This document shows, in pieces, positions 1 to 19,216 of a stretch of 64,000 nucleotides of DNA; position 1 is the stretch's first letter; each line of letters begins with the position of its first letter. Source of the stretch: Trypanosoma brucei gambiense DAL972. Its lineage: Eukaryota > Euglenozoa > Kinetoplastea > Trypanosomatida > Trypanosomatidae. Under the pieces are notes generated by a model. It saw nothing but the letters and a program-made list of their open reading frames with translations. It did not search any database and had not been told where the DNA came from. The position numbers and the translations under genes were made by a program. The stretch is from positions 2,356,001-2,420,000 of the forward strand of contig NC_026744.1 in NCBI RefSeq assembly GCF_000210295.1, written 5' to 3'.

Positions 1-3
1 TAG
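1..3 (+). CDS. 3' end (stop codon only) of a further DNA polymerase kappa copy
   Basis: The window opens with TAG followed by TGA, the same tandem stop that ends copies 1 to 4. The next bases are the same post-stop spacer that follows every other copy. The array therefore continues to the left of the window with at least one more unit. Confidence 0.85.
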   Translation, partial: 

Positions 4-807: not shown

Positions 808-2520
808 ATGTGTGGGGGAGAAGAGAATGGTGGATTGGATCAGGCACATGTGTCCTACAGTGGCAGTGCGAGTGAGCAAAACATTGCGGAAATGATTGTA
901 GACCCATCAGCTTCCCGTCAGCCCACAGCATTCCAACTCACACTCGATTGCAATAAGGCAGGAATGGGAAATGTGGATAAGGAACGTGTCGCTGCAGTGA
1001 TACATGAGATGTCTGCGGGATCAGGGTACCTTTGCAATCAGCAGCGTTTATCAAAAGGTCGAGAGAAGCAACTGCAAGAGCTGAAGCGGAAATCATCTCT
1101 CTTCACTCAGTTGTTGGGTGGTGAACGAAACGCTGCGCAGCGGACGCAGTGGGAGGTGAAGGTTTCCAAAATAGAACAGGAGCTTGAGGCTACGCGTCGA
1201 CTGGGAACTTATATCCATTTAGACATGGACATGTTTTATGCTGCTGTTGAAATCAAGAAGCATCCGGAGTACGCCAACGTTCCGCTTGCAGTTGGAACTA
1301 AAACAATGCTAACAACCGCAAATTATGTTGCTAGAGGTTGTGGTGTCCGTCCTGGTATGCCAGGTTATATCGGATTGAAGATTTGCCCGAATTTGCTCAT
1401 TCTGCCTCCTGATTTCGATGCTTACAACGAGGAATCCAATACTGTGCGCCGTATTGTTGCTGAATACGACCCTAATTACATCAGCTTTGGTTTGGATGAA
1501 CTGACCCTTGAGGTAAGTGCCTACATAGAGCGCTTTGAGGGAACCAAAACAGCCGAAGATGTGGCTTCTGAACTGCGTGTACGTGTATTTGGTGAAACAA
1601 AGTTGACAGCAAGTGCTGGTATTGGACCCACTGCAGCACTTGCCAAGATTGCCAGTAATATTAATAAGCCGAATGGACAACATGATCTTAATCTTCATAC
1701 CCGACAGGATGTGATGACATACGTCAGGGATTTGGGTCTACGTTCTGTGCCTGGTATTGGGAAGGCTATGGAAGCTCTGTTGAAGGGACTGGGTATCACC
1801 ACTCTCTCAGATATTTACAATAGGCGTGTTGAACTTTGTTATATCTTTACCGAAAAAACATATCGCTTTTTGCTTGGAGCTTCCATTGGCATTATGCAAT
1901 GGCCCGATGCGTGCAATATACCGGGTGGCTCTGTCGATGATGGGACAGGTGTGGGAAGGAAGTCAGTTGGTAGTGAACGTACATTCAAAATATTGCAAAG
2001 CAAAGAGGAATTACAGGAAATCGTTGATTTTATTTTTAATTCTTCGTATGATGAACTAAAGAAACATGAGCTGATGTGTAGACAGGTTTCGTTAAGAATA
2101 AGGTGGGCAACCTATCGCTCCCGGCAGTATACTATGAATTTGGCCCAACATTCAGATGACTCTGCAACCCTTCGCCGCGCAGTGGATGGTTTACTGTTAC
2201 CGCATGCTGCAAAGTACTCAGATATGTCGTTACTGGGGATGCGTCTGTTAGACCTTATCTTTGCAAAAGACTTTCATATAAAAAGAAAGGGTGGTAACCA
2301 ACTGTCTATTTCACAATTTATTCGCCCCAAGAAGCTGGGTGAGGTAACAGCAACCACCGGTATAAAAAGGGAGAGGACTACTGAACCGAAACAGGTTGTG
2401 GAAATAATAATATCATCAGATGACGAGGATGAGAATGATAGTGTTGGCTTGGCATCTAGCTCCACTGCACTCGTTTCAACTGACAAAGGTACTGTTGAGA
2501 GGGAAGTTACCATAATTTAG
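808..2520 (+). CDS. POLK: DNA polymerase kappa, array copy 1
   Basis: Y-family translesion DNA polymerase, 570 aa. It inserts nucleotides opposite damaged bases using two metal-binding acidic clusters. Visible features: the DMDMFY palm motif with D139 and D141; the VR-PGMPG pocket loop near residue 182; the LDE catalytic motif with D230 and E231; a helix-hairpin-helix thumb (SVPGIGK, about 314-319); and a little finger to about 485. The C-terminus has a PIP-like motif (QLSISQFI, about 498-505), then VVEIII followed by an acidic run, which resembles a SUMO-interacting motif. The frame can be extended four codons upstream to a TTG, but the first ATG is at 808. This copy is the most divergent in its N-terminal block (SAGSGYLCNQQ) and little finger. 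In the related T. cruzi, a pol kappa has been described in the mitochondrion; location here cannot be read from the sequence. Confidence 0.93.
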   Translation: MCGGEENGGLDQAHVSYSGSASEQNIAEMIVDPSASRQPTAFQLTLDCNKAGMGNVDKERVAAVIHEMSAGSGYLCNQQRLSKGREKQLQELKRKSSLFTQLLGGERNAAQRTQWEVKVSKIEQELEATRRLGTYIHLDMDMFYAAVEIKKHPEYANVPLAVGTKTMLTTANYVARGCGVRPGMPGYIGLKICPNLLILPPDFDAYNEESNTVRRIVAEYDPNYISFGLDELTLEVSAYIERFEGTKTAEDVASELRVRVFGETKLTASAGIGPTAALAKIASNINKPNGQHDLNLHTRQDVMTYVRDLGLRSVPGIGKAMEALLKGLGITTLSDIYNRRVELCYIFTEKTYRFLLGASIGIMQWPDACNIPGGSVDDGTGVGRKSVGSERTFKILQSKEELQEIVDFIFNSSYDELKKHELMCRQVSLRIRWATYRSRQYTMNLAQHSDDSATLRRAVDGLLLPHAAKYSDMSLLGMRLLDLIFAKDFHIKRKGGNQLSISQFIRPKKLGEVTATTGIKRERTTEPKQVVEIIISSDDEDENDSVGLASSSTALVSTDKGTVEREVTII

Positions 2521-3325
2521 TGAAATGAGGACATCAGTCAATAGAAATTCCCACATTACCCAATGGCATTCATATACAAATCACCTATACACAAGTACCC
2601 ATAAACAAAACACATTATACACATGTATTGTTATACAGCTATCATATGTTTTCATTTTTTGAAGTTATACTTTATATGGTTTATTACTTACATTGTTTTT
2701 TTATTAAGCATGCTTGTGCTCATGTACAACCAGTGGAGCAACTGGCTAATAACTCCTTCATCTTTGTGCGGACACCTTGGTGTATCCTATACTTTCTTTG
2801 AGGCCTTCTAATCCAGGTACTTTTTACACACTGTGACGCTAGTAAGTGTAGTTCTTTCTTTTGATTAATGTCTACTGCGTGCAGTGATGCGAAAAAGTGT
2901 GTACTTTATTTGTATGTTTATCTTCGGGTTTGATTTGTTTGGTTGCTGATGACAGTGGAAGGCCTCTGCAATTATGAAAACTCATAAGGAGGTCCACTAT
3001 AATTATACTGTTGTTCCCAGATATACGGGTGTGCGCCTAAAGGGACAGGTGACGTTCAAATTGGATATCCCTCCCATTGTTGACCGTATCTCACATTATT
3101 GGATATGTTGTAATCACTGACGGCTTGCTGTGAACTGCCACAGCTGTACACATGCACACACATGTGATTCGGTTTTTCTTCTCCCAATATCCTTCCTTTC
3201 ATATAATATAGGCAACCACACAATATTGGCACAACACCTGCTATCAAACTACCCTAACCCAAGTGTCTGTTTGTTTCTTTACGTCACTGGGAGGGTTTTA
3301 ACAAGAACTAACATTGAGTCTGACT
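2521..3325 (+). other. Array spacer between pol kappa copies 1 and 2
   Basis: No gene is supported. It is nearly identical to the other spacers, with scattered single-base differences. The predicted splice acceptor for copy 2 is the AG at 3210-3211. Confidence 0.75.
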
Positions 3326-5038
3326 ATGTGTGGGGGAGAAGAGAATGGTGGATTGGATCAGGCACATGTGTCCTACAGTGGCAGTGCGAGTGAGCAAAAC
3401 ATTGCGGAAATGATTGTAGACCCATCAGCTTCCATCACCATGGGTTTTCCGTTTTCCATCGATTGCAATAAGGCAGGAATGGGAAATGTGGATAAGGAAC
3501 GTGTGGAAGCAATTATACGTGATGCCAGGGAAGGATCCCCCTTTCTATTGAATGAACAACGTTTGGCTGAGGGTCGAGAGAAGCAACTGCAAGAGCTGAA
3601 GCGGAAATCATCTCTCTTCACTCAGTTGTTGGGTGGTGAACGAAACGCTGCGCAGCGGAAACAGTGGGAGCTGAAGGTTTCCAAAATGGAGCAGGAGCTT
3701 GAGGCTACGCGTCGACTGGGAACTTATATCCATTTAGACATGGACATGTTTTATGCTGCTGTTGAAATCAAGAAGCATCCGGAGTACGCCACCATTCCGC
3801 TTGCCATAGGCACCATGACGAGGCTACAAACAGCAAATTATGTTGCGCGTGGACGTGGTGTCCGTCCCGGTATGCCAGGTTTCCTTGCTCTAAAAATCTG
3901 CCCGAATCTACTATTACTCCCTCCCGATGATGATTCCTACTATTTGGAATCCAATATCGTACGTCGTATTGTTGCTGAATACGATCCTAATTACATAGTT
4001 GTTGGTTTGGATGACTTTACTCTCGAAGTAAGTGCCTACATAGAGCGTTTTGAGGGAACCAAAACAGCCGAAGATGTGGCTTCTGAACTGCGTGTGCGTG
4101 TATTTGGTGAAACAAAGTTGACAGCAAGTGCTGGTATTGGACCCACTGCAGCACTTGCCAAGATTGCCAGTAATATTAATAAGCCGAATGGACAACATGA
4201 TCTTAATCTTCATACCCGAGAGGATGTGATGACATACGTCAGGGATTTGGGTCTACGTTCTGTGCCTGGTGTTGGGAAGGTTACGGAAGCTCTGTTGAAG
4301 GGACTGGGTATCACCACTCTCGGCGACATTCACGATAGGCGTGTTGAACTTTGTTACATTTTGCACAATAATTTATTTCGCTTTTTGCTTGGAGCTTCCA
4401 TTGGCATTATGCAATGGCCCGATGCAGCAACGGCAGCCAATACCGAGAATTGTGAGGGGGCTACTGGAGGGCAACGGAAGGCAATCAGTAGCGAGCGATC
4501 TTTTTATGTGTTACATAGCAAAGAGCAGTTGCATGAAATGATTTACAGTATTTTTGAAGAGGCCTATGAAGAAATGCGACAGAATGAAATGTTGTGTCGT
4601 CAGATCTCCTTGCTTGTGCGTTGGTCGTCTTATCGTTATCAACAATACACAAAAAGTTTGATACAACATTCAGATGACTCTGCAACCCTTCGCCGCGCAG
4701 TGGATGGTTTACTGTTACCGCATGCTGCAAAGTATTCAGAGATGTGTTTGTTGGGGGTACGTTTTCTTGACCTTATCTCTGCAAAAGACTTTCATATGAA
4801 AAGGAAGGGTGGTAACCAACTGTCTATTTCACAATTTATTCGCCCCAAGAAGCTGGGTGAGGTAACAGCAACCACCGGTATAAAAAGGGAGAGGACTACT
4901 GAACCGAAAAAGGTTGTGGAAATAATAATATCATCAGATGACGAGGATGAGAATGATAGTGTTGGCTTGGCATCTAGCTCCACTGTACTCGTTTCAACTG
5001 GCAAAGGTACTGTTGAGAGGGAAGTTACCATAATTTAG
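3326..5038 (+). CDS. POLK: DNA polymerase kappa, array copy 2 (LDD variant)
   Basis: A 570-aa Y-family polymerase with all domains of copy 1. Its key difference is the catalytic palm motif, which reads GLDDF and not GLDEL, so the second catalytic acidic residue (residue 230, codon 4013-4015) is Asp where the family has Glu. The metal-binding DMDMFY motif is intact. The N-terminal block is SITMGFPFSI in place of the RQPTAFQLTL type. The segment before the LDD motif reads DDDSYYLESNIV, not DFDAYNEESNTV. The little finger is the SFYVLHSKEQ type, shared with copies 3 and 4. The predicted protein appears identical to that of copy 4. Confidence 0.93.
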   Translation: MCGGEENGGLDQAHVSYSGSASEQNIAEMIVDPSASITMGFPFSIDCNKAGMGNVDKERVEAIIRDAREGSPFLLNEQRLAEGREKQLQELKRKSSLFTQLLGGERNAAQRKQWELKVSKMEQELEATRRLGTYIHLDMDMFYAAVEIKKHPEYATIPLAIGTMTRLQTANYVARGRGVRPGMPGFLALKICPNLLLLPPDDDSYYLESNIVRRIVAEYDPNYIVVGLDDFTLEVSAYIERFEGTKTAEDVASELRVRVFGETKLTASAGIGPTAALAKIASNINKPNGQHDLNLHTREDVMTYVRDLGLRSVPGVGKVTEALLKGLGITTLGDIHDRRVELCYILHNNLFRFLLGASIGIMQWPDAATAANTENCEGATGGQRKAISSERSFYVLHSKEQLHEMIYSIFEEAYEEMRQNEMLCRQISLLVRWSSYRYQQYTKSLIQHSDDSATLRRAVDGLLLPHAAKYSEMCLLGVRFLDLISAKDFHMKRKGGNQLSISQFIRPKKLGEVTATTGIKRERTTEPKKVVEIIISSDDEDENDSVGLASSSTVLVSTGKGTVEREVTII

Positions 5039-5843
5039 TGAAATGAGGACATCAGTCAATAGAAATTCCCACATTACCCAATGGCATTCATATACAAATC
5101 ACCTATACACAAGTACCCATAAACAAAACACATTATACACATGTATTGTTATACAGCTATCATATGTTTTCATTTTTTGAAGTTATACTTTATATGGTTT
5201 ATTACTTACATTGTTTTTTTATTAAGCATGCTTGTGCTCATGTACAACCAGTGGAGCAACTGGCTAATAACTCCTTCATCTTTGTGCGGACACCTTGGTG
5301 TATCCTATACTTTCTTTGAGGCCTTCTAATCCAGGTACTTTTTACACACTGTGACGCTAATAAGTGTAGTTCTTTCTTTTGATTAATGTCTACTGCGTGC
5401 AGTGATGCGAAAAAGTGTGTACTTTATTTGTATGTTTATCTTCGGGTTTGATTTGTTTGGTTGCTGATGACAGTGGAAGGCCTCTGCAATTATGAAAACT
5501 CATAAGGAGGTCCACTATAATTATACTGTTGTTCCCAGATATACGGGTGTGCGCCTAAAGGGACAGGTGACGTTCAAATTGGATATCCCTCCCATTGTTG
5601 ACCGTATCTCACATTATTGGATATGTTGTAATCACTGACGGCTTGCTGTGAACTGCCACAGCTGTACACATGCACACACATGTGATTCGGTTTTTCTTCT
5701 CCCAATATCCTTCCTTTCATATAATATAGGCAACCACACAATATTGGCACAACACCTGCTATCAAACTACCCTAACCCAAGTGTCTGTTTGTTTCTTTAC
5801 GTCACTGGGAGGGTTTTAACAAGAACTAACATTGAGTCTGACC
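5039..5843 (+). other. Array spacer between pol kappa copies 2 and 3
   Basis: No gene is supported. The acceptor for copy 3 is predicted at 5728-5729. Confidence 0.75.
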
Positions 5844-7559
5844 ATGTGTGGGGGAGAAGAGAATGGTGGATTGGATCAGGCACATGTGTCCTACAGTGGC
5901 AGTGCGAGTGAGCAAAACATTGCGGAAATGATTGTAGACCCATCAGCTTCCCGTCAGCCCACAGCATTCCAACTCACACTCGATTGCAATAAGGCAGGAA
6001 TGGGAAATGTGGATAAGGAACGTGTGGAAGCTATTATACGTGGTGCCGGGGAAGGCACACCTTTTTTATTAAATGAACAACGTTTGGTTGAGGGTCGAGA
6101 GAAGCAACTGCGGGAACTCAAACGGAAATCATCTCTCTTCACTCGGTTGTTGGGTGGTGAACGAAACGCTGCGCAGCGGACGCAGTGGGAGCTGAAGGTT
6201 TCCAAAATAGAACAGGAGCTTGAGGCTACGCGTCGACTGGGAACTTATATCCATTTAGACATGGACATGTTTTATGCTGCTGTTGAAATCAAGAAGCATC
6301 CGGAGTACGCCACCATCCCGCTTGCCATAGGCACCATGACGAGGCTACAAACAGCAAATTACATTGCGCGTGGACGTGGTATTCGTCAAGGTATGCCAGG
6401 TTTCCTTGCTCTAAAAATCTGCCCGAATTTGCTCATTCTACCTCCTGATTTCGATGCTTACAACGAGGAATCCAATACTGTGCGCCGTATTGTTGCTGAA
6501 TACGATCCTAATTACATAGTTGTTGGTTTGGATGAACTAACCCTTGAGGTAAGTGCCTACATAGAGCGTTTTGAGGGAACCAAAACAGCCGAAGATGTGG
6601 CTTCTGAACTGCGTGTGCGTGTATTTGGTGAAACAAAGTTGACAGCAAGTGCTGGTATTGGACCCACTGCAGCACTTGCCAAGATTGCCAGTAATATTAA
6701 TAAGCCGAATGGACAACATGATCTTAATCTTCATACCCGAGAGGATGTGATGACATACGTCAGGGATTTGGGTCTACGTTCTGTGCCTGGTGTTGGGAAG
6801 GTTACGGAAGCTCTGTTGAAGGGACTGGGTATCACCACTCTCGGCGACATTCACGATAGGCGTGTTGAACTTTGTTACATTTTGCACAATAATTTATTTC
6901 GCTTTTTGCTTGGAGCTTCCATTGGCATTATGCAATGGCCCGATGCAGCAACGGCAGCCAATACCGAGAATTGTGAGGGGGCTACTGGAGGGCAACGGAA
7001 GGCAATCAGTAGCGAGCGATCTTTTTATGTGTTACATAGCAAAGAGCAGTTGCATGAAATGATTTACAGTATTTTTGAAGAGGCCTATGAAGAAATGCGA
7101 CAGAATGAAATGTTGTGTCGTCAGATCTCCTTGCTTGTGCGTTGGTCGTCTTATCGTTATCAACAATACACAAAAAGTTTGATACAACATTCAGATGACT
7201 CTGCAACCCTTCGTCGCGCAGTGGATGGTTTACTGTTACCGCATGCTGCAAAGTATTCAGAGATGTGTTTGTTGGGGGTACGTTTTCTTGACCTTATCTC
7301 TGCAAAAGACTTTCATATGAAAAGGAAGGGTGGTAACCAACTGTCTATTTCACAATTTATTCGCCCCAAGAAGCTGGGTGAGGTAACAGCAACCACCGGT
7401 ATAAAAAGGGAGAGGACTACTGAACCGAAAAAGGTTGTGGAAATAATAATATCATCAGATGACGAGGATGAGAATGATAGTGTTGGCTTGGCATCTAGCT
7501 CCACTATACTCGTTTCAACTGGCAAAGGTACTGTTGAGAGGGAAGTTACCATAATTTAG
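5844..7559 (+). CDS. POLK: DNA polymerase kappa, array copy 3
   Basis: A 571-aa Y-family polymerase with canonical DMDMFY and LDE catalytic motifs. It combines the RQPTAFQLTL N-terminal block, a pocket loop reading GIRQGMPG (Pro of copy 1 replaced by Gln), the DFDAYNEESNTV block and the SFYVLHSKEQ little finger of copies 2 and 4. Its N-terminal two thirds match copy 5 almost exactly, while its C-terminal third matches copies 2 and 4. It is therefore a clear mosaic. The C-terminal PIP-like and acidic tail motifs are intact. Confidence 0.93.
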   Translation: MCGGEENGGLDQAHVSYSGSASEQNIAEMIVDPSASRQPTAFQLTLDCNKAGMGNVDKERVEAIIRGAGEGTPFLLNEQRLVEGREKQLRELKRKSSLFTRLLGGERNAAQRTQWELKVSKIEQELEATRRLGTYIHLDMDMFYAAVEIKKHPEYATIPLAIGTMTRLQTANYIARGRGIRQGMPGFLALKICPNLLILPPDFDAYNEESNTVRRIVAEYDPNYIVVGLDELTLEVSAYIERFEGTKTAEDVASELRVRVFGETKLTASAGIGPTAALAKIASNINKPNGQHDLNLHTREDVMTYVRDLGLRSVPGVGKVTEALLKGLGITTLGDIHDRRVELCYILHNNLFRFLLGASIGIMQWPDAATAANTENCEGATGGQRKAISSERSFYVLHSKEQLHEMIYSIFEEAYEEMRQNEMLCRQISLLVRWSSYRYQQYTKSLIQHSDDSATLRRAVDGLLLPHAAKYSEMCLLGVRFLDLISAKDFHMKRKGGNQLSISQFIRPKKLGEVTATTGIKRERTTEPKKVVEIIISSDDEDENDSVGLASSSTILVSTGKGTVEREVTII

Positions 7560-8363
7560 TGAAATGAGGACATCAGTCAATAGAAATTCCCACATTGCCC
7601 AATGGCATTCATATACAAATCACCTATACACAAGTACCCATAAACAAAACACATTATACACATGTATTGTTATACAGCTATCATATGTTTTCATTTTTTG
7701 AAGTTATACTTTATATGGTTTATTACTTACATTGTTTTTTCTTAAGCATACTTGTGCTCATGTACAACCAGTGGAGCAACTGGCTAATAACTCCTTCATC
7801 TTTGTGCGGACACCTTGGTGTATCCTATACTTTCTTTGAGGCCTTCTAATCCAGGTACTTTTTACACACTGTGACGCTAATAAGTGTAGTTCTTTCTTTT
7901 GATTAATGTCTACTGCGTGCAGTGATGCGAAAAAGTGTGTACTTTATTTGTATGTTTATCTTCGGGTTTGATTTGTTTGGTTGCTGATGACAGTGGAAGG
8001 CCTCTGCAATTATGAAAACTCATAAGGAGGTCCACTATAATTATACTGTTGTTCCCAGATATACGGGTGTGCGCCTAAAGGGACAGGTGACGTTCAAATT
8101 GGATATCCCTCCCATTGTTGACCGTATCTCACATTATTGGATATGTTGTAATCACTGACGGCTTGCTGTGAACTGCCACAGCTGTACACATGCACACACA
8201 TGTGATTCGGTTTTTCTTCTCCCAATATCCTTCCTTTCATATAATATAGGCAACCACACAATATTGGCACAACACCTGCTATCAAACTACCCTAACCCAA
8301 GTGTCTGTTTGTTTCTTTACGTCACTGGGAGGGTTTTAACAAGAACTAACATTGAGTCTGACC
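7560..8363 (+). other. Array spacer between pol kappa copies 3 and 4
   Basis: No gene is supported. The T-run near 7736 is interrupted as TTTTTTCTTAAG, where most other spacers have TTTTTTATTAAG; the spacer after copy 5 shares this variant. The acceptor for copy 4 is predicted at 8248-8249. Confidence 0.75.
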
Positions 8364-10076
8364 ATGTGTGGGGGAGAAGAGAATGGTGGATTGGATCAGG
8401 CACATGTGTCGTACAGTGGCAGTGCGAGTGAGCAAAACATTGCGGAAATGATTGTAGACCCATCAGCTTCCATCACCATGGGTTTTCCGTTTTCCATCGA
8501 TTGCAATAAGGCAGGAATGGGAAATGTGGATAAGGAACGTGTGGAAGCAATTATACGTGATGCCAGGGAAGGATCCCCCTTTCTATTGAATGAACAACGT
8601 TTGGCTGAGGGTCGAGAGAAGCAACTGCAAGAGCTGAAGCGGAAATCATCTCTCTTCACTCAGTTGTTGGGTGGTGAACGAAACGCTGCGCAGCGGAAAC
8701 AGTGGGAGCTGAAGGTTTCCAAAATGGAGCAGGAGCTTGAGGCTACGCGTCGACTGGGAACTTATATCCATTTAGACATGGACATGTTTTATGCTGCTGT
8801 TGAAATCAAGAAGCATCCGGAGTACGCCACCATTCCGCTTGCCATAGGCACCATGACGAGGCTACAAACAGCAAATTATGTTGCGCGTGGACGTGGTGTC
8901 CGTCCCGGTATGCCAGGTTTCCTTGCTCTAAAAATCTGCCCGAATCTACTATTACTCCCTCCCGATGATGATTCCTACTATTTGGAATCCAATATCGTAC
9001 GTCGTATTGTTGCTGAATACGATCCTAATTACATAGTTGTTGGTTTGGATGACTTTACTCTCGAAGTAAGTGCCTACATAGAGCGTTTTGAGGGAACCAA
9101 AACAGCCGAAGATGTGGCTTCTGAACTGCGTGTGCGTGTATTTGGTGAAACAAAGTTGACAGCAAGTGCTGGTATTGGACCCACTGCAGCACTTGCCAAG
9201 ATTGCCAGTAATATTAATAAGCCGAATGGACAACATGATCTTAATCTTCATACCCGAGAGGATGTGATGACATACGTCAGGGATTTGGGTCTACGTTCTG
9301 TGCCTGGTGTTGGGAAGGTTACGGAAGCTCTGTTGAAGGGACTGGGTATCACCACTCTCGGCGACATTCACGATAGGCGTGTTGAACTTTGTTACATTTT
9401 GCACAATAATTTATTTCGCTTTTTGCTTGGAGCTTCCATTGGCATTATGCAATGGCCCGATGCAGCAACGGCAGCCAATACCGAGAATTGTGAGGGGGCT
9501 ACTGGAGGGCAACGGAAGGCAATCAGTAGCGAGCGATCTTTTTATGTGTTACATAGCAAAGAGCAGTTGCATGAAATGATTTACAGTATTTTTGAAGAGG
9601 CCTATGAAGAAATGCGACAGAATGAAATGTTGTGTCGTCAGATCTCCTTGCTTGTGCGTTGGTCGTCTTATCGTTATCAACAATACACAAAAAGTTTGAT
9701 ACAACATTCAGATGACTCTGCAACCCTTCGCCGCGCAGTGGATGGTTTACTGTTACCGCATGCTGCAAAGTATTCAGAGATGTGTTTGTTGGGGGTACGT
9801 TTTCTTGACCTTATCTCTGCAAAAGACTTTCATATGAAAAGGAAGGGTGGTAACCAACTGTCTATTTCACAATTTATTCGCCCCAAGAAGCTGGGTGAGG
9901 TAACAGCAACCACCGGTATAAAAAGGGAGAGGACTACTGAACCGAAAAAGGTTGTGGAAATAATAATATCATCAGATGACGAGGATGAGAATGATAGTGT
10001 TGGCTTGGCATCTAGCTCCACTGTACTCGTTTCAACTGGCAAAGGTACTGTTGAGAGGGAAGTTACCATAATTTAG
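8364..10076 (+). CDS. POLK: DNA polymerase kappa, array copy 4 (LDD variant, near-duplicate of copy 2)
   Basis: A 570-aa Y-family polymerase whose predicted protein appears identical to copy 2, including the Glu-to-Asp change at residue 230 (codon 9051-9053) and the SITMGFPFSI N-terminal block. Nucleotide differences from copy 2 are rare; one is GTCGTACAG here against GTCCTACAG there, near 8410. Its position two units after copy 2 suggests that a two-gene block was duplicated. Confidence 0.93.
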   Translation: MCGGEENGGLDQAHVSYSGSASEQNIAEMIVDPSASITMGFPFSIDCNKAGMGNVDKERVEAIIRDAREGSPFLLNEQRLAEGREKQLQELKRKSSLFTQLLGGERNAAQRKQWELKVSKMEQELEATRRLGTYIHLDMDMFYAAVEIKKHPEYATIPLAIGTMTRLQTANYVARGRGVRPGMPGFLALKICPNLLLLPPDDDSYYLESNIVRRIVAEYDPNYIVVGLDDFTLEVSAYIERFEGTKTAEDVASELRVRVFGETKLTASAGIGPTAALAKIASNINKPNGQHDLNLHTREDVMTYVRDLGLRSVPGVGKVTEALLKGLGITTLGDIHDRRVELCYILHNNLFRFLLGASIGIMQWPDAATAANTENCEGATGGQRKAISSERSFYVLHSKEQLHEMIYSIFEEAYEEMRQNEMLCRQISLLVRWSSYRYQQYTKSLIQHSDDSATLRRAVDGLLLPHAAKYSEMCLLGVRFLDLISAKDFHMKRKGGNQLSISQFIRPKKLGEVTATTGIKRERTTEPKKVVEIIISSDDEDENDSVGLASSSTVLVSTGKGTVEREVTII

Positions 10077-10881
10077 TGAAATGAGGACATCAGTCAATAG
10101 AAATTCCCACATTGCCCAATGGCATTCATATACAAATCACCTATACACAAGTACCCATAAACAAAACACATTATACACATGTATTGTTATACAGCTATCA
10201 TATGTTTTCATTTTTTGAAGTTATACTTTATATGGTTTATTACTTACATTGTTTTTTTATTAAGCATGCTTGTGCTCATGTACAACCAGTGGAGCAACTG
10301 GCTAATAACTCCTTCATCTTTGTGCGGACACCTTGGTGTATCCTATACTTTCTTTGAGGCCTTCTAATCCAGGTACTTTTTACACACTGTGACGCTAATA
10401 AGTGTAGTTCTTTCTTTTGATTAATGTCTACTGCGTGCAGTGATGCGAAAAAGTGTGTACTTTATTTGTATGTTTATCTTCGGGTTTGATTTGTTTGGTT
10501 GCTGATGACAGTGGAAGGCCTCTGCAATTATGAAAACTCATAAGGAGGTCCACTATAATTATACTGTTGTTCCCAGATATACGGGTGTGCGCCTAAAGGG
10601 ACAGGTGACGTTCAAATTGGATATCCCTCCCATTGTTGACCGTATCTCACATTATTGGATATGTTGTAATCACTGACGGCTTGCTGTGAACTGCCACAGC
10701 TGTACACATGCACACACATGTGATTCGGTTTTTCTTCTCCCAATATCCTTCCTTTCATATAATATAGGCAACCACACAATATTGGCACAACACCTGCTAT
10801 CAAACTACCCTAACCCAAGTGTCTGTTTGTTTCTTTACGTCACTGGGAGGGTTTTAACAAGAACTAACATTGAGTCTGACC
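10077..10881 (+). other. Array spacer between pol kappa copies 4 and 5
   Basis: No gene is supported. The acceptor for copy 5 is predicted at 10766-10767. Confidence 0.75.
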
Positions 10882-12600
10882 ATGTGTGGGGGAGAAGAGA
10901 ATGGTGGATTGGATCAGGCACATGTGTCCTACAGTGGCAGTGCGAGTGAGCAAAACATTGCGGAAATGATTGTAGACCCATCAGCTTCCCGTCAGCCCAC
11001 AGCATTCCAACTCACACTCGATTGCAATAAGGCAGGAATGGGAAATGTGGATAAGGAACGTGTGGAAGCTATTATACGTGGTGCCGGGGAAGGCACACCT
11101 TTTTTATTAAATGAACAACGTTTGGTTGAGGGTCGAGAGAAGCAACTGCGGGAACTCAAACGGAAATCATCTCTCTTCACTCGGTTGTTGGGTGGTGAAC
11201 GAAACGCTGCGCAGCGGACGCAGTGGGAGCTGAAGGTTTCCAAAATAGAACAGGAGCTTGAGGCTACGCGTCGACTGGGAACTTATATCCATTTAGACAT
11301 GGACATGTTTTATGCTGCTGTTGAAATCAAGAAGCATCCGGAGTACGCCACCATCCCGCTTGCCATAGGCACCATGACGAGGCTACAAACAGCAAATTAC
11401 ATTGCGCGTGGACGTGGTATTCGTCAAGGTATGCCAGGTTTCCTTGCTCTAAAAATCTGCCCGAATTTGCTCATTCTACCTCCTGATTTCGATGCTTACA
11501 ACGAGGAATCCAATACTGTGCGCCGTATTGTTGCTGAATACGATCCTAATTACATAGTTGTTGGTTTGGATGAACTAGCCCTTGAGGTAAGTGCCTACAT
11601 AGAGCGTTTTGAGGGAACCAAAACAGCCGAAGATGTGGCTTCTGAACTGCGTGTGCGTGTATTTGGTGAAACAAAGTTGACAGCAAGTGCTGGTATTGGA
11701 CCCACTGCAGCACTTGCCAAGATTGCCAGTAATATTAATAAGCCGAATGGACAACATGATCTTAATCTTCATACCCGAGAGGATGTGATGACATACGTCA
11801 GGGATTTGGGTCTACGTTCTGTGCCTGGTGTTGGGAAGGTTACGGAAGCTCTGTTGAAGGGACTGGGTATCACCACTCTCTCAGATATTTACAATAGGCG
11901 TGTTGAACTTTGTTACATTTTGCACAATAATTTATTTCGCTTTTTGCTTGGAGCTTCCATTGGCATTATGCAATGGCCCGATGCAGCAACGGCAGCCAAT
12001 ACCGAGAATTGTGAGGGGGCTACTGGAGAGCAACGGAAGGCAATCAGTAGCGAGCGATCCATCACTACTCCACGAACCAAAGAAGGTATGCAGGAAATGG
12101 TTGATACCGTATTCAATGGCGCCTATGAAGAAATGCGGAAGAGTGAGATAATGTGTAGACGGATATCCCTCACAATTAGATGGGCCTCCTATCGTTATCA
12201 ACAATACACAAAAAGTTTGATACAACATTCAGATGACTCTGCAACCCTTCGCCGCGCAGTAGACGAGCTCATGTTACCGCACGCTGCAAAGTATTCAGAG
12301 ATGTGTTTGTTGGGGGTACGTCTCTCGGACCTTATCTCTGCAAAAGACTTTCATATGAAAAGGAAGGGTGGTAACCAACTGTCTATTTCACAATTTATTC
12401 GCCCCAAGAAGCTGGGTGAGGTAACAGCAACCACCGGTATAAAAAGGGAGAGGACTACTGAACCGAAACAGGTTGTGGAAATAATAATATCATCAGATGA
12501 CGAGGATGAGAATGATAGTGTTGGCTTGGCATCTAGCTCCACTATACTCGTTTCAACTGACAAAGGTACTGTTGAGAGGGAAGTTACCATAATTGAGTGA
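10882..12600 (+). CDS. POLK: DNA polymerase kappa, array copy 5
   Basis: A 572-aa Y-family polymerase. The first two thirds match copy 3, with GIRQGMPG and an intact LDE motif; the next residues are LALEV where the other copies have LTLEV or FTLEV. The segment after the thumb switches to the LSDIYNRR form otherwise seen only in copy 1. The little finger is a third type (SITTPRTKEG), shared with copy 6. It ends with ELMLPH and LSDLIS where the others have GLLLPH and FLDLIS or LLDLIF. The usual TAG stop is mutated to GAG, so translation runs one residue further (Glu) to the adjacent TGA. Confidence 0.93.
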   Translation: MCGGEENGGLDQAHVSYSGSASEQNIAEMIVDPSASRQPTAFQLTLDCNKAGMGNVDKERVEAIIRGAGEGTPFLLNEQRLVEGREKQLRELKRKSSLFTRLLGGERNAAQRTQWELKVSKIEQELEATRRLGTYIHLDMDMFYAAVEIKKHPEYATIPLAIGTMTRLQTANYIARGRGIRQGMPGFLALKICPNLLILPPDFDAYNEESNTVRRIVAEYDPNYIVVGLDELALEVSAYIERFEGTKTAEDVASELRVRVFGETKLTASAGIGPTAALAKIASNINKPNGQHDLNLHTREDVMTYVRDLGLRSVPGVGKVTEALLKGLGITTLSDIYNRRVELCYILHNNLFRFLLGASIGIMQWPDAATAANTENCEGATGEQRKAISSERSITTPRTKEGMQEMVDTVFNGAYEEMRKSEIMCRRISLTIRWASYRYQQYTKSLIQHSDDSATLRRAVDELMLPHAAKYSEMCLLGVRLSDLISAKDFHMKRKGGNQLSISQFIRPKKLGEVTATTGIKRERTTEPKQVVEIIISSDDEDENDSVGLASSSTILVSTDKGTVEREVTIIE

Positions 12601-13400
12601 GATGAGGACATCAGTCAATAGAAATTCCCACATTGCCCAATGGCATTCATATACAAATCACCTATACACAAGTACCCATAAACAAAACACATTATACACA
12701 TGTATTGTTATACAGCTATCATATGTTTTCATTTTTGAAGTTATACTTTATATGGTTTATTACTTACATTGTTTTTTCTTAAGCATGCTTGTGCTCATGT
12801 ACAACCAGTGGAGCAACTGGCTAATAACTCCTTCATCTTTGTGCGGACACCTTGGTGTATCCTATACTTTCTTTGAGGCCTTCTAATCCAGGTACTTTTT
12901 ACACACTGTGACGCTAATAAGTGTAGTTCTTTCTTTTGATTAATGTCTACTGCGTGCAGTGATGCGAAAAAGTGTGTACTTTATTTGTATGTTTATCTTC
13001 GGGTTTGATTTGTTTGGTTGCTGATGACAGTGGAAGGCCTCTGCAATTATGAAAACTCATAAGGAGGTCCACTATAATTATACTGTTGTTCCCAGATATA
13101 CGGGTGTGCGCCTAAAGGGACAGGTGACGTTCAAATTGGATATCCCTCCCATTGTTGACCGTATCTCACATTATTGGATATGTTGTAATCACTGACGGCT
13201 TGCTGTGAACTGCCACAGCTGTACACATGCACACACATGTGATTCGGTTTTTCTTCTCCCAATATCCTTCCTTTCATATAATATAGGCAACCACACAATA
13301 TTGGCACAACACCTGCTATCAAACTACCCTAACCCAAGTGTCTGTTTGTTTCTTTACGTCACTGGGAGGGTTTTAACAAGAACTAACATTGAGTCTGACC
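12601..13400 (+). other. Array spacer between pol kappa copies 5 and 6
   Basis: No gene is supported. It is slightly shorter than the others, with one fewer T near 12731. The acceptor for copy 6 is predicted at 13285-13286. Confidence 0.75.
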
Positions 13401-15119
13401 ATGTGTGGGGGAGAAGAGAATGGTGGATTGGATCAGGCACATGTGTCGTACAGTGGCAGTGCGAGTGAGCAAAACATTGCGGAAATGATTGTAGACCCAT
13501 CAGCTTCCCGTCAGCCCACAGCATTCCAACTCACACTCGATTGCAATAAGGCAGGAATGGGAAATGTGGATAAGGAACGTGTGGAAGCTATTATACGTGG
13601 TGCCGGGGAAGGCACACCTTTTTTATTAAATGAACAACGTTTGGTTGAGGGTCGAGAGAAGCAACTGCGGGAACTCAAACGGAAATCATCTCTCTTCACT
13701 CAGTTGTTGGGTGGTGAACGAAACGCTGCGCAGCGGAAACAGTGGGAGCTGAAGGTTTCCAAAATAGAACAGGAGCTTGAGGCTACGCGTCGACTGGGAA
13801 CTTATATCCATTTAGACATGGACATGTTTTATGCTGCTGTTGAAATCAAGAAGCATCCGGAGTACGCCACCATTCCGCTTGCCATAGGCACCAGGACGAG
13901 GCTACAAACAGCAAATTATGTTGCGCGTGGACGTGGTGTTCGATGTAGCATGCCAGGTTTCCTTGCTCTAAAAATCTGCCCGAATTTGCTCATTCTGCCT
14001 CCTGATTTCGATTCTTACAACGAGGAATCCAATACTGTGCGCCGTATTGTTGCTGAATACGACCCTAATTACATCAGCTTTGGTTTGGATGAACTGACCC
14101 TTGAGGTAAGTGCCTACATAGAGCGTTTTGAGGGAACCAAAACAGCCGAAGATGTGGCTTCTGAACTGCGTGTGCGTGTATTTGGTGAAACAAAGTTGAC
14201 AGCAAGTGCTGGTATTGGACCCACTGCAGCACTTGCCAAGATTGCCAGTAATATTAATAAGCCGAATGGACAACATGATCTTAATCTTCATACCCGAGAG
14301 GATGTGATGACATACGTCAGGGATTTGGGTCTACGTTCTGTGCCTGGTGTTGGGAAGGTTACGGAAGCTCTGTTGAAGGGACTGGGTATCACCACTCTCG
14401 GCGACATTCATGATAGGCGTGTTGAACTTTGTTACATTTTGCACAATAATTTATTTCGCTTTTTGCTTGGAGCTTCCATTGGCATTATGCAATGGCCCGA
14501 TGCAGCAACGGCAGCCAATACCGAGAATTGTGAGGGGGCTACTGGAGAGCAACGGAAGGCAATCAGTAGCGAGCGATCCATCACTACTCCACGAACCAAA
14601 GAAGGTATGCAGGAAATGGTTGATACCGTATTCAATGGCGCCTATGAAGAAATGCGGAAGAGTGAGATGATGTGTAGACGCATTTCGTTAAGAATAAGGT
14701 GGGCCTCCTATCGTTATCAACAATACACAAAAAGTTTGATACAATATTCAGATGACTCTGCAACCCTTCGCCGCGCAGTGGATGGTTTACTGTTACCGCA
14801 TGCTGCAAAGTATTCAGAGATTTCACTGTTGGGGGTACGTTTTCTTGACCTTATCTCTGCAAAAGTCTTTCATATGAAAAGAAAGGGTGGTAACCAACTG
14901 TCTATTTCACAATTTATTCGCCCCAAGAAGCTGGGTGAGGGAACAGCAACCACCGGTATAAAAAGGGAGAGGACTACTGAACCGAAACAGGTTGTTGGAG
15001 TGAATCTATCATCAGATGACGAGGATGAGAATGATAGTGTTGGCTTGGCATCTAGCTCCACTATACTCGTTTCAACTGACAAAGGTACTGTTGAGAGTGA
15101 AGTTACCATAATTGAGTGA
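13401..15119 (+). CDS. POLK: DNA polymerase kappa, array copy 6 (last copy)
   Basis: A 572-aa Y-family polymerase with canonical DMDMFY and LDE motifs. The pocket loop reads GVRCSMPG, unlike any other copy (C182, S183). The palm block ISFGLDELTL is otherwise seen only in copy 1, while the N-terminus matches copies 3 and 5 and the little finger matches copy 5. Changes near the C-terminus are unique to this copy: AKVFH for AKDFH, GEGTATT for GEVTATT, and VVGVNLSSDD for VVEIIISSDD, which alters the hydrophobic core of the possible SUMO-interacting motif. It ends with Glu-TGA, as copy 5 does. Edge copies of arrays often escape homogenisation, which may explain the private changes. Confidence 0.93.
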   Translation: MCGGEENGGLDQAHVSYSGSASEQNIAEMIVDPSASRQPTAFQLTLDCNKAGMGNVDKERVEAIIRGAGEGTPFLLNEQRLVEGREKQLRELKRKSSLFTQLLGGERNAAQRKQWELKVSKIEQELEATRRLGTYIHLDMDMFYAAVEIKKHPEYATIPLAIGTRTRLQTANYVARGRGVRCSMPGFLALKICPNLLILPPDFDSYNEESNTVRRIVAEYDPNYISFGLDELTLEVSAYIERFEGTKTAEDVASELRVRVFGETKLTASAGIGPTAALAKIASNINKPNGQHDLNLHTREDVMTYVRDLGLRSVPGVGKVTEALLKGLGITTLGDIHDRRVELCYILHNNLFRFLLGASIGIMQWPDAATAANTENCEGATGEQRKAISSERSITTPRTKEGMQEMVDTVFNGAYEEMRKSEMMCRRISLRIRWASYRYQQYTKSLIQYSDDSATLRRAVDGLLLPHAAKYSEISLLGVRFLDLISAKVFHMKRKGGNQLSISQFIRPKKLGEGTATTGIKRERTTEPKQVVGVNLSSDDEDENDSVGLASSSTILVSTDKGTVESEVTIIE

Positions 15120-15793
15120 AGTGAGGACATCAGTCAATAGAAATTCCCACATTGCCCAATGGCATTCATATACAAATCACCTATACACAAGTACCCATAA
15201 ACAAAACACATTATACACATGTATTGTTATACAGCTATCATATGTTTTCATTTTTTGAAGTTATACTTTATATGGTTTATTACTTACATTGTTTTTTATT
15301 AAGCATGCTTGTGCTCATGTACAACCAGTGGAGCAACTGGCTAATAACTCCTTCATCTTTGTGCGGACACCTTGGTGTATCCTATACTTTCTTTGAGGCC
15401 TTCTAATCCAGGTACTTTTTACACACTGTGACGCTAATAAGTGTAGTTCTTTCTTTTGATTAATGTCTACTGCGTGCAGTGATGCGAAAAAGTCTGTACT
15501 TTATTTGTATGTTTATCTTCGGGTTTGATTTGTTTGGTTGCTGATGACAGTGGAAGGCCTCTGCAATTATGTTTGTGTTTTTGTTTCTCTGTGTTGCTGT
15601 TTTTCTATATTTTTGGAGTTTGTTTTTTTTTCTTCCTGTTTTTTTGCACTTCTTTTCTTTGCTTTCCTCTTGCAACATATTTTTTTATGTAATTGTATTT
15701 TTTTTTTGTGTGTGTAATGGTGGCGGATGTTGTTTTTGTTTTAGGAGTTGAAGTTTTTGTTGTTGGATTGAGAGCGACAACGGTAGTTTGCTG
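15120..15793 (+). other. Truncated array spacer and junction to unique sequence
   Basis: Bases 15120-15571 match the start of the other spacers. Identity then stops and a very T-rich stretch (15571-15745) begins. That stretch could serve as the polypyrimidine tract for the next gene, with an AG at 15743-15744. No gene is seen here. Confidence 0.8.
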
Positions 15794-17458
15794 ATGGTTT
15801 CGTTTATTTACAGCTGCGTCTCTAGTCGTCTGACGTTTGCTAGTGTGAAGAGGGCTGTTGGGCAATATTCATGTTTTCATGTGATTTGTTCCCCGCGCTT
15901 CCACAGTAACTATGTTGTGGGGGTCAACAAGGCGCCTAGTTGGATCGCGTCCCCGACAGAAAGGCGACAAAAGTTTGGTGAAGAGTGCCTTGCCGAAGGT
16001 AAAGAGCGGGATGGCGACATGGATGTAGAGCTTGTTCCCGTGGACGTGAAAAAGCTTGCTTTGCCCCTGCACCTCACGGACTCGATCCCGCAGGATATCG
16101 TCGATAATATCGTTGCGAGAGATAGAACACTTGTTTTCGCGCCAAACATGAAGATACTAGACCTGCACAGGCGGTTGTCCCGGATGAAGTATCGGATAAG
16201 CGTCCAGCCGCTTGGGAAGGTGCTGCACTTCCGATTCTTTCGGCTGTGTAAATTGTCCAGCGGTATGCCCGGAGATGTTACAGTGGAAACCTTCCGCAGC
16301 ATCCAGCAGAAACTCTCCGAGTACACAAGATTTTTGGTGATGGATGAACGTTGGCCACTGGAGTTGTCATTAGAAATTACCCCCATTATTGAGCATCAAC
16401 GGAAGCAAATGCTTGAATGCCAAGGGGAATGCCGCGTTTCAACGGCGGAGGATGTAATGGAGTTACTTAGTAGTGTTTTTTCCGCTGAGCTCCGCGTGGG
16501 GGCGTGGTGCGGTTTGTCTTGCACACCAGTCTTGGCGAAGATGGCGTGCGACGAGTGTCACAGGAAACACAAACTATGCCGACAGGACTATTCTCGCGGT
16601 GGGGTAGTAGGTACCGTGCGTTACGATATTAGGTCGCACAAGGAGGCAAAGGAGTTTGTGCAGAACCTTTCGTTGGGCGATATTCCTGTTGTTGGGAAGC
16701 CACAAGCGAGGCTCCTGGAAGATGTTTATGGCATTACCAAATGCGGCGGGATTGCGGATCAGGAGGTAAGACTGGGTTTCAGCCTGTCGCAGTCGACGAT
16801 GGAGTTCTTCCTCTCTGTAGCGTATGGCACAGTTCGACTCCCTAGCGAGGCCACCACCACGCTTTTGCGCAAACCGCCGAGATGTAAGGCCGCCCATATA
16901 CGGCGCGAGTCACAGTTTGGCCGTGTGGTATCAGACGAACAGTTTATCAACACCGTAATGTCCGTCTTCGACAACGTGTACACAGACCTTGTGGAACATG
17001 ATTTCGTGACGGGACGGGTCATGATCGAGACACGCCGCACACTCCCGCGCACTCATTGGGTGGTTGAAGAGAGTGAAGACATTGCGCCCCGAACGAGCGA
17101 CCGCGATTTGCTGCGGGAGGTAACGATCCGCCTCGCAAGACGTTTTGCCCCACGGCGAACCGAAGAGCTGCGAGACATTTACAGCGTTGGTGTTCATTTC
17201 GGAGACGTGCGCTCGTGGTCAGAGAATGAGAGGTTGCAGAAGAAAGCTGTTGCAGTGAGCGAAGGGGGCAGCCCCACGACAGGCGGAAGGAAGGATGGCG
17301 TTATCGGTGCGGCGAACGGTGTCCCGGCGCCTACAGTGCCCAAGGGTAGCTCTTCCGCTGGGGCACGACAGCAGAAAAGAAAGAGAACGGGCACCGGTCC
17401 AAAGCCGTTGAGGAAAGGCAAGATGGGGGCGGCATCGGGAATTCGCATCGTCACATAA
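15794..17458 (+). CDS. Divergent Y-family polymerase-like protein, predicted catalytically inactive
   Basis: A 554-aa protein that aligns by eye with the neighbouring pol kappas over most of its length. Shared marks include the pocket GMPG (157-160), an STAEDVMELL helix like TAEDVASELR, the TPVLAKMA segment like TAALAKIA, the thumb IPVVGK..ARLL..GI, and the VYTDLVEHD and YSVGVHFGD parts of the little finger. The catalytic residues are gone. The position of DMDMFY reads APNMKI (about 116-121), and LDE reads PLE (188-190, bases 16355-16363). About 15 residues between GMPG and that site are missing. The first 50 residues have basic and Ser/Thr residues and almost no acids, like a mitochondrial presequence. 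The tail is basic. The frame opens at a TTG (15788); ATG 15794 lies 50 nt after the AG at 15743-15744. A decayed but intact pseudoenzyme with a structural role is my inference. Confidence 0.75.
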   Translation: MVSFIYSCVSSRLTFASVKRAVGQYSCFHVICSPRFHSNYVVGVNKAPSWIASPTERRQKFGEECLAEGKERDGDMDVELVPVDVKKLALPLHLTDSIPQDIVDNIVARDRTLVFAPNMKILDLHRRLSRMKYRISVQPLGKVLHFRFFRLCKLSSGMPGDVTVETFRSIQQKLSEYTRFLVMDERWPLELSLEITPIIEHQRKQMLECQGECRVSTAEDVMELLSSVFSAELRVGAWCGLSCTPVLAKMACDECHRKHKLCRQDYSRGGVVGTVRYDIRSHKEAKEFVQNLSLGDIPVVGKPQARLLEDVYGITKCGGIADQEVRLGFSLSQSTMEFFLSVAYGTVRLPSEATTTLLRKPPRCKAAHIRRESQFGRVVSDEQFINTVMSVFDNVYTDLVEHDFVTGRVMIETRRTLPRTHWVVEESEDIAPRTSDRDLLREVTIRLARRFAPRRTEELRDIYSVGVHFGDVRSWSENERLQKKAVAVSEGGSPTTGGRKDGVIGAANGVPAPTVPKGSSSAGARQQKRKRTGTGPKPLRKGKMGAASGIRIVT

Positions 17459-17818
17459 GTGGTGTTGATGGTGGCCACTAATTGCAGATTCTTATTTGGT
17501 CGTGGGAGCACTGTTGCTTGCAAGTGGCCGGTGTACTGCGCGGGGGCAACACTTCAACATGCAGCCGGGCTGAACGGGGCGCGAAGGAAACAGCCGTCGA
17601 ACCAGAGGTTCTACAAACCCGCGATGCGTTGATGATCTAAACGCTTCGCCGAGCACGTACGCTACTCAAAGGCTTTGAGTATCATGCAAAGGTCGCTGTA
17701 CCTGCCATTCTTTTCTCATCCCTGCTCATTATTCATTTGCGTCCTTTCCAGGACTTCCTTTTCACCCATTTTCTGTATCCTCATCCTTCGCCTGCAGGTA
17801 GCGCTCAGATACCGCGGC
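17459..17818 (+). other. Intergenic region with splice signals for the next gene
   Basis: No gene is seen. A strong pyrimidine tract (about 17706-17750) ends in an AG at 17750-17751, with a second candidate AG at 17796-17797. Both lie downstream of an in-frame ATG at 17684, which should therefore not be used. Confidence 0.6.
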
Positions 17819-19216
17819 ATGTGGCGTCACAGCTGTATTCTTCATGGAATACCCCCTGCAGAGGGGCTGATGACAACCCCCGGAACGCTGCCGCCCACTT
17901 CATCCTCTCCGCGTTGTACGCACACTTGTGTGGTTCGTGACCAACACCGCGGCCGTGACAACCGCGATTTCGCGCTTTTATCCACGTCGGCATCTCCCGG
18001 GGGTCGGCTGCTCTCCTTGCATATCGATAGCGAGCGGGCGGAACTGCGCCAGGCGCGGATCGCAGCTGTGAGTGATTCCCTGTTGGAAACAAGGGGGGCC
18101 GCCATGCACTTGCGTCTGACTTCCTCCCGGAGTGGTGGCGTGGCGCGCGGCGCTGGGTTTGACGCTGGCGAACAAACTCGGGGGAAAGTGCCAACGCCCC
18201 TTCAAATGACACCGTGGAGCCGCGTGGATACCACTGTTTTGGTTACAGATGACTATTGTGAACCGGTACGGCGCCTCCGGCTGTACAGTGAGCATGAGGA
18301 CACCGCGGTCGTAATGGCGCCGGACGCGTTGTACCAACTGCGGTTGGATCCGCTGATAAGGGAGTGCTTCTTCGATGTGGGTTGCGCGGCTGTGAACGCA
18401 ACAGCGGTGGACTGCTGGGGGCCGCATTGCGCGGTCGTCGGATTTTCTTCGGGTGATTTGTCCGTTGTTGACTGGCGTGACCCAGGTGGTGGTCCGCTGC
18501 TGCGGACCAGGCCGCCTCAGCCACCATTTGTTGCCCTACCGAAGTGCGGACGGCGCCTTGCAACTGCTCCACTATTTACAGGTGTGATGTCGTGTTGCTC
18601 GCTGGATGATGGATTCCGAATTGTGTGCGGGTTTGGAGATTTCGCCGGAACAGTTGTGGTTGCAGACCTGCGGAAAGCCGTGACGAACTCGAGCGATAAA
18701 AGGAAGAGTGGTCGCCGTTCTTTGGGGAAGGAAGGTCAGGATGCCGTTCTTACTGGCTCCTTTTCATCACCCACCTCCTACCCAGTATGCGACATGAGGC
18801 ACTGTCGTGACAGCTTTGGCACAATTGGCATGGTAGACACAGGAGGGACGGCACTCCTAACGTCAATAGGTGCACTGGAGTCGGGCGCTCTAAAGGCCCG
18901 TCGAGCACGGTGTGGGGCGGTTGCCAATGGAACCTTCGTGAGCGAACTCAAGCGTGGTGATGATGTTCCTATTAAGCATACGCGTGCCCTGCGGTGTGAC
19001 GTTTCACCAAATGGATCTTTTGTAGCGAGCACGGGTGCGGGGCCTTGGTCAGCTTCACTTACAACCCTTTGTGGTAGGAGTGTTCCTCTTGGTTTCGGCT
19101 ACTCTGCGGTGGAGGGGCTTGGAGAAGAGGTGTTCACGTCGATTTCATGTATGGGATCGGTCGTGGGCGCTCAGGCAATAGATGGGAGCGTCGTCCACGC
19201 CACCATTGAACCGTAA
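17819..19216 (+). CDS. Hypothetical protein, beta-propeller (WD40-like) features
   Basis: A 465-aa protein that I cannot name. Several blade-like segments can be seen: short hydrophobic strands with GD and D-x-R turns, such as VGFSSGDLSVVDWRD and GDFAGTVVVADLRK. Spacing is irregular, so the WD40 or propeller assignment is tentative. There is no signal peptide or membrane helix if the start at 17819 (MWRHSC) is right. A longer frame reaches ATG 17684 and would add a hydrophobic stretch (FCILILRL). However, that stretch is translation of the polypyrimidine tract before the predicted acceptors at 17750-17751 and 17796-17797, so the shorter form is preferred. The coding sequence is more GC-rich than the pol kappa array. 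Confidence 0.7.
   Translation: MWRHSCILHGIPPAEGLMTTPGTLPPTSSSPRCTHTCVVRDQHRGRDNRDFALLSTSASPGGRLLSLHIDSERAELRQARIAAVSDSLLETRGAAMHLRLTSSRSGGVARGAGFDAGEQTRGKVPTPLQMTPWSRVDTTVLVTDDYCEPVRRLRLYSEHEDTAVVMAPDALYQLRLDPLIRECFFDVGCAAVNATAVDCWGPHCAVVGFSSGDLSVVDWRDPGGGPLLRTRPPQPPFVALPKCGRRLATAPLFTGVMSCCSLDDGFRIVCGFGDFAGTVVVADLRKAVTNSSDKRKSGRRSLGKEGQDAVLTGSFSSPTSYPVCDMRHCRDSFGTIGMVDTGGTALLTSIGALESGALKARRARCGAVANGTFVSELKRGDDVPIKHTRALRCDVSPNGSFVASTGAGPWSASLTTLCGRSVPLGFGYSAVEGLGEEVFTSISCMGSVVGAQAIDGSVVHATIEP

Follow-up and report, generated by a model that had tools for sequence, protein, structure and literature searches.

A protein with the fold of DNA polymerase (pol) kappa, with neither catalytic aspartate in any of 11 orthologues and with the fingers missing, is encoded beside the pol kappa genes of Trypanosoma brucei gambiense DAL972 and is conserved and kappa-linked within Trypanosoma. 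We favour the view that this pseudo-polymerase is a Trypanosoma pol kappa paralogue that lost catalysis and fingers before the sampled species split, was then held under constraint, and may serve in the mitochondrion as a platform that grips nucleic acid and does not synthesise it (probability of about 0.45). More generally, its sequence supports a conserved non-catalytic relative of the Y family kept for another job, possibly a mitochondrial one.

The stretch of DNA analysed (the window) is 64,000 nucleotides long and corresponds to bases 2356001-2420000 of contig 11. The features around the gene are the following:

808..15119, forward strand: six pol kappa copies, active-type relatives recognised by a profile match (one copy) and by sequence comparison; from ATG to stop, they lie at 808-2520, 3326-5038, 5844-7559, 8364-10076, 10882-12600 and 13401-15119
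15575..15744, forward strand: pyrimidine-rich stretch (15575-15715) followed by an AG (15743-15744), a candidate spliced-leader acceptor picked out by eye
15794..17458, forward strand: whole pseudo-polymerase gene, 554 codons and a stop; a catalytically dead, fingerless pol kappa paralogue

The intact frame of 554 residues and the adjoining pol kappa array, both described in an earlier note on this DNA, are confirmed. Shuffling the bases of the stretch 1000 times gave, in the same frame, open runs of 231 codons at most, which rules out a chance open reading frame. The six kappa copies of the window precede the pseudo-polymerase and a seventh lies just upstream. The spacer repeated in the array runs on to 15571, ahead of the pseudo-polymerase, in five out of five comparisons. 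The ATG at 15794 is the first one downstream of the AG at 15743-15744, which was called as a candidate site by the acceptor rule. The kappa array (1-15571) is poorer in GC3 than the pseudo-polymerase and the nine genes that follow it (0.41 for two kappa copies vs 0.60 and 0.50-0.59, respectively). For the next gene downstream (17684-19216, 510 amino acids when counted from its first ATG), Pfam gives nothing at E <= 1.

Table 1 of PMC7576959 lists the kappas of T. b. gambiense as seven genes (Tbg972.11.9660-9720), without an eighth, and a passage of PMC10719067 gives the T. brucei Pol kappa as Tb927.11.8530. Tb927.11.8710, which may or may not be the pseudo-polymerase gene, appears among the data of PMC4285177 as a hypothetical gene with an mRNA half-life. 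No description of an inactive trypanosome Y-family protein, or of the pseudo-polymerase itself, was found in the main texts of one open-licence library.

Active-site variation exists within the kappa array itself: LDDF stands in place of LDEL at the catalytic Glu in three of the seven copies (3326-5038, 8364-10076 and the upstream seventh), and the two listed kappa clusters of TREU927 (P0013 and P0014) both have LDD. The last copy (13401-15119) carries GVRCSMPG, where the others have GVR/GIR-x-GMPG, and VVGVNLSSDDEDE where the others have VVEIIISSDDEDE, a stretch that resembles a SUMO-interaction motif. In other species, the catalytic core holds an uninterrupted run of 193 identical residues between the paralogues P0018 and P0023 (T. 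cruzi) and one of 178 between P0019 and P0025 (T. theileri), whereas each pair differs at both ends and the longest identical run between species is 22. The kappa core appears to have undergone gene conversion in T. cruzi and T. theileri.

Membership of the Y family is indicated by several types of comparison. The Pfam IMS profile matches the pseudo-polymerase with an E of 2.5e-5 (24.7 bits for a cut-off of 23.2). It is found at E <= 0.1 in all 11 orthologues (best E 1.3e-12) and IMS_HHH, at the same threshold, in 10 of them. Profile-profile alignment by hhalign with the 120 listed kappa matches, out of 2621 found, gives a probability of 99.2 and an E of 7.7e-20 over residues 190-478. Local matches to kappa are about 24-27% identical. 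Furthermore, the models of the window's protein and of its T. cruzi relative adopt a Y-family, kappa-like fold, for which kappa is the best structural match, and the folding of palm, thumb and little finger agrees with that of Y-family members of known structure. The kappa plan from palm to little finger, proposed earlier, thus holds for these three parts, with the thumb hairpin and the little finger kept as described (IMS_HHH in 10/11, hhalign and model), but not for the fingers, which are missing.

The NCBIfam search returned Pol IV and UmuC models only, in a collection where the presence of an ImuB model is uncertain. A sequence search of the PDB (2026 copy) gave nothing beyond a chance row, eL27, at E 0.73; this indicates that the pseudo-polymerase has not turned up in any trypanosome complex whose structure is known to date, and its identity as a subunit of one of them was rejected. 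TbPolIE, which we take to be Tb927.11.5550, was considered for this reason as another possible identity. It was rejected, as the part of PMC12578213 that deals with PolIE makes it an A-family enzyme.

The protein can be divided into the following parts:

15794..16024, forward strand: residues 1-77, presequence-like N-terminus, variable among orthologues and disordered in the model
16025..16213, forward strand: residues 78-140, LxPVDxKKLxLPLH then two helices, the most conserved block
16139-16156, forward strand: residues 116-121, APNMKI, inside the block 78-140
16214..16243, forward strand: residues 141-150, GKVLHFRFFR, the palm strand at the position of the DMD strand (structural alignments)
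16232-16234, forward strand: R147, at the first catalytic Asp
16244..16282, forward strand: residues 151-163, short variable loop in the place of the fingers
16262-16273, forward strand: residues 157-160, GMPG, within the variable loop
16283..16633, forward strand: residues 164-280, rest of the palm, with invariant K249 (hhalign, model, profile scoring)
16358-16363, forward strand: L189-E190, at the LDE site
16634..16828, forward strand: residues 281-345, thumb with helix-hairpin-helix (IMS_HHH in 10/11, model)
16895..17215, forward strand: residues 368-474, little finger (hhalign, model)
17216..17455, forward strand: residues 475-554, basic, variable and disordered tail without a PIP-like box

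Both catalytic acidic sites had been described as lost. The two aspartates are indeed absent from the 11 proteins, but one carboxylate position, E190, is retained in all of them. Residue 147, at the first Asp, is Arg in nine proteins and Cys in two, and residue 189, at the second, is Leu in eight, Val in two and Thr in one. The earlier note had equated APNMKI with the DMDMFY site, which proves incorrect: APNMKI sits in helices ahead of the palm, whereas the DMDMFY strand corresponds to VLHFRFF, with R147 at the catalytic Asp. In structural alignments with the model of the window's protein, residue 1 of Dpo4 falls on 141, residue 26 of Pol iota on 139, residue 3 of Pol eta on 137 and residue 57 of human kappa on 97. 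Provided that no gap intervenes, the catalytic Asp numbers that we assume for these four enzymes all point to residue 147. With the T. cruzi model, the alignments of Dpo4 and Pol iota start at 164 and 162, which are the same alignment columns as 141 and 139, and the same assumed numbers point to residue 170 of the T. cruzi protein, the column of 147.

For the second site, read previously as PLE instead of LDE, gapless profile scoring places LDELTLEVSA at 188 (score 7.8, next 4.3), so that the Asp position is L189, where the loss is confirmed, and the adjacent Glu is E190, which is kept and invariant. The same scoring misses the DMD strand (the 147 register comes only fifth), and the assignment of R147 therefore rests on the structural alignments. 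APNMKI precedes the palm strand under either register. The kappa helix that it matches depends on the approach, i.e., the helix just ahead of the palm according to the structural offset and clasp helix 2 according to profile scoring (start 114, score 3.6, next -1.2).

The block 78-140 lies where kappa has its N-clasp and pre-palm helices. Its helices span residues 100-112 and 117-137 in the model, and 11 of the 12 kappa rows have a match that opens at residue 97 or 99. The place of the N-clasp is occupied by helices, whose register differs between structural alignment and profile scoring. For residues 78-152, hhalign gives a weak register (scores as high in 6/200 shuffles with 118 kappas and in 163/200 with 32 trypanosomatid kappas), and for the N-terminal half alone it yields no usable register.

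The loss within the fingers/palm region is larger than the 15 residues or so suggested previously. The distance between the two Asp positions is 42 residues vs 91 in the seven kappas measured, which means that about 49 residues, nearly all the fingers, are missing, a variable loop of 13 residues being left. GMPG, put forward as a retained pocket motif, lies in this loop and is not conserved; GMP occurs there in 2 of the 11 proteins, and is taken as chance or as an unconstrained remnant. In Y-family terms, the lost parts are those that bind metal and form the roof over the incoming nucleotide, and the kept parts are those that hold DNA in kappa.

It could be argued that the protein is still an active polymerase, or another metal enzyme with rearranged ligands (D184, E190 and E194). 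D184 and E190 are invariant and residue 194 is acidic in the 11 orthologues, and K249, which falls in the LAK motif of kappa, is also invariant. With D184 and E190 invariant, some metal binding may persist. However, with both Asp positions and nearly all the fingers gone, such an enzyme appears very improbable.

A search of about 5.8 billion proteins returned the window's protein and 10 relatives, all from Trypanosoma and 47-53% identical over the matched part: T. congolense, T. grayi, T. melophagium, T. cruzi, T. c. marinkellei, T. conorhini, T. rangeli (two proteins), T. theileri and T. vivax. A profile search returned the same 11 proteins. No relative outside Trypanosoma appeared in the single-sequence or the profile search, each run among the 7996 candidates sharing most words. 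The block 78-140 has a mean pairwise identity of 0.71 among 10 of the 11 orthologues, vs 0.69 for the little finger, 0.66 for the thumb, 0.36 for the N-terminus and 0.32 for the tail.

Broken orthologues are not the rule, ten of the 11 proteins being full length. The entry of T. vivax (P0011) is short, with 401 amino acids and an end apparently out of frame after the thumb, either because the little finger has truly been lost or because the sequence contains an error. This truncated entry and the disappearance of the catalytic motifs are what a decaying pseudogene, with a frame open by chance, would lead one to expect. The ten full-length proteins, the 71 alignment columns invariant in all 11 and a rate of change near that of kappa make this hardly credible, and the pseudogene was rejected on these grounds.

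This rate was estimated in two ways. Branches summed from the window's protein to that of T. cruzi amount to 0.79, vs 0.97 for kappa1. Over 10 matched species pairs (a mean calculated without the five T. vivax pairs), whole-protein identity is 50.6% for the pseudo-polymerase vs 52.7% for kappa, the latter value being lowered in the pairs of T. melophagium, whose kappa (P0021) has a stretch apparently out of frame. When T. melophagium is also left out, the six remaining pairs give 47.7% vs 50.6%. In the T. vivax pairs, the pseudo-polymerase looks faster (38.0-42.5% vs 45.3-52.4% identical for kappa).

A tree of the block that runs from the palm through the thumb to the little finger was built with 42 rows: nine pseudo-polymerases, P0008 and the truncated P0011 being left out of the 11, and 33 kappas taken from the 120 listed. 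The labels kappa1 (PIP-like box) and kappa2 (presequence-like start) were coined in the present analysis. The nine pseudo-polymerases form one clade (100/100), whose stem is 2.87 changes per column and whose inner branches are short. A long stem followed by change about as slow as that of active kappas suggests that catalysis was lost and that a new constraint then took hold. In this tree, the clade groups on the kappa2 side with a support of 86/82, and p-AU is 0.025 when the pseudo-polymerases are held with kappa1, 0.445 with kappa2 and 0.298 with non-kinetoplastid kappas. These values allow more than one origin among kappas, and the long stem makes any placement unsure.

Equal sizes of the longest contigs matched by the pseudo-polymerase and by kappa (626277, 454233, 577629, 8872 and 6428) lead us to infer that the two lie on the same contig in T. 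theileri, T. melophagium, T. vivax, T. c. marinkellei and T. conorhini. This presumed linkage in five other species, together with a basic run of the tail of the window's protein (KRKRTGTGPKPLRKGK) that could be a nuclear signal and to that extent weighs against a mitochondrial location, would fit a nuclear protein that regulates the active kappa copies, competing for instance for primer ends or partners. Tandem duplication alone would nevertheless also give linkage, and two features speak against such a role. The N-terminus is presequence-like, as the earlier note had proposed: residues 2-41 include no acidic residue in seven of the 11 proteins and one in the other four, and the T. congolense protein, counted from Met73, likewise has none. 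The same count gives 6-7 acidic residues in five kappa1 proteins and 2-3, with 9-10 basic ones, in three kappa2 proteins, and the six kappa copies of the window have acidic, non-presequence-like starts. Furthermore, a QxxhxxFx (PIP-like) box is present in the tail of 9/9 kappa1, 0/4 kappa2 and 0/11 pseudo-polymerases, where a match near 333 in six proteins falls in the thumb. A nuclear regulator thus seems quite unlikely.

The net charge of the palm-thumb-little finger block ranges from -5 to 0 in the pseudo-polymerases (n=9), from -3 to +4 in kappa1 (n=8) and from +13 to +19 in kappa2 (n=4). Being like that of kappa1 and far below that of kappa2, it does not indicate strong or tight DNA binding. 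This lack of excess positive charge, the presequence-like start, the long stem and a palm pocket that has been remodelled, with W187, W238 and C239 invariant, could mean that DNA binding was lost and that the fold took on a mitochondrial job based on protein or RNA, as an assembly factor or a structural subunit. On the other hand, the thumb and the little finger are well conserved and no PDB chain matches, so that the protein is not among the solved trypanosome complexes; this alternative appears somewhat unlikely.

Selection for a non-catalytic job, possibly in the mitochondrion, the central claim of the earlier note, is supported by the kappa-like fold, the 10 relatives, the kappa linkage, the kappa-like rate and the presequence-like N-terminus. 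A protein that has lost its catalytic site and fingers and yet is well conserved probably has a job other than copying DNA, and the most direct reading would be that it holds on to nucleic acid or to a repair complex and synthesises nothing. According to the favoured scenario of a constrained kappa paralogue, catalysis and fingers would have been lost before the Trypanosoma species sampled here diverged, after which the protein would have been retained under protein-level constraint for a non-synthesising job. It would be imported into the mitochondrion, where the thumb, the little finger and the N-terminal helices would grip nucleic acid without extending it, the substrate probably being intermediates of kinetoplast DNA repair or replication. 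It could also be the platform on which another enzyme is positioned, the LxPVDxKKLxLPLH block perhaps being used for this purpose.

Among known systems, pol kappa (Y family, DinB branch) shares with the pseudo-polymerase the palm, thumb, little finger, extra N-terminal helices and gene neighbourhood, but has both catalytic Asp and the 49 or so residues of the fingers that the latter has lost. The T. cruzi pol kappa, reported at the kinetoplast and able to bypass 8-oxoguanine (Rajao 2009, as related in PMC10719067), is likewise kappa-type and linked to the mitochondrion, but is active, whereas the pseudo-polymerase is devoid of the catalytic Asp. Bacterial ImuB, the catalytically dead part of a mutasome (PMC6511836), and other inactive Y-family proteins are also descendants of the family without catalytic residues that selection has kept, although they belong to a different branch, ImuB has ImuA and DnaE2 as its bacterial partners and, in the sections concerned of PMC6511836 and PMC12926913, loss of the fingers is not reported. 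Our best guess is that ImuB offers the nearest working model, in function and not in descent.

A bolder version, unlikely as a whole, would make the pseudo-polymerase a eukaryotic counterpart of ImuB in kind: a fingerless dead kappa that clamps kinetoplast DNA intermediates and is the platform by which a mitochondrial complex for lesion tolerance is recruited. Because no presequence-bearing kappa2 was found in the T. brucei lineage, it would also be the kappa-group protein left in the mitochondrion of these parasites. The seven kappa copies of the window's genome, on contig 11 at 2354408-2370858, align with the T. cruzi kappa2 from residue 28 or 31 of the latter and no earlier; with its first 27 residues unmatched, a presequence-bearing kappa2 seems absent from this genome.

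Inactive Y-family proteins are parts of bacterial mutagenic complexes, as described for ImuB in PMC6511836. A conserved fingerless protein in a eukaryote would show that the Y-family fold can be reduced to the parts that grip and turned to a new purpose, and it bears on which kappa-type protein serves the kinetoplast of T. brucei.
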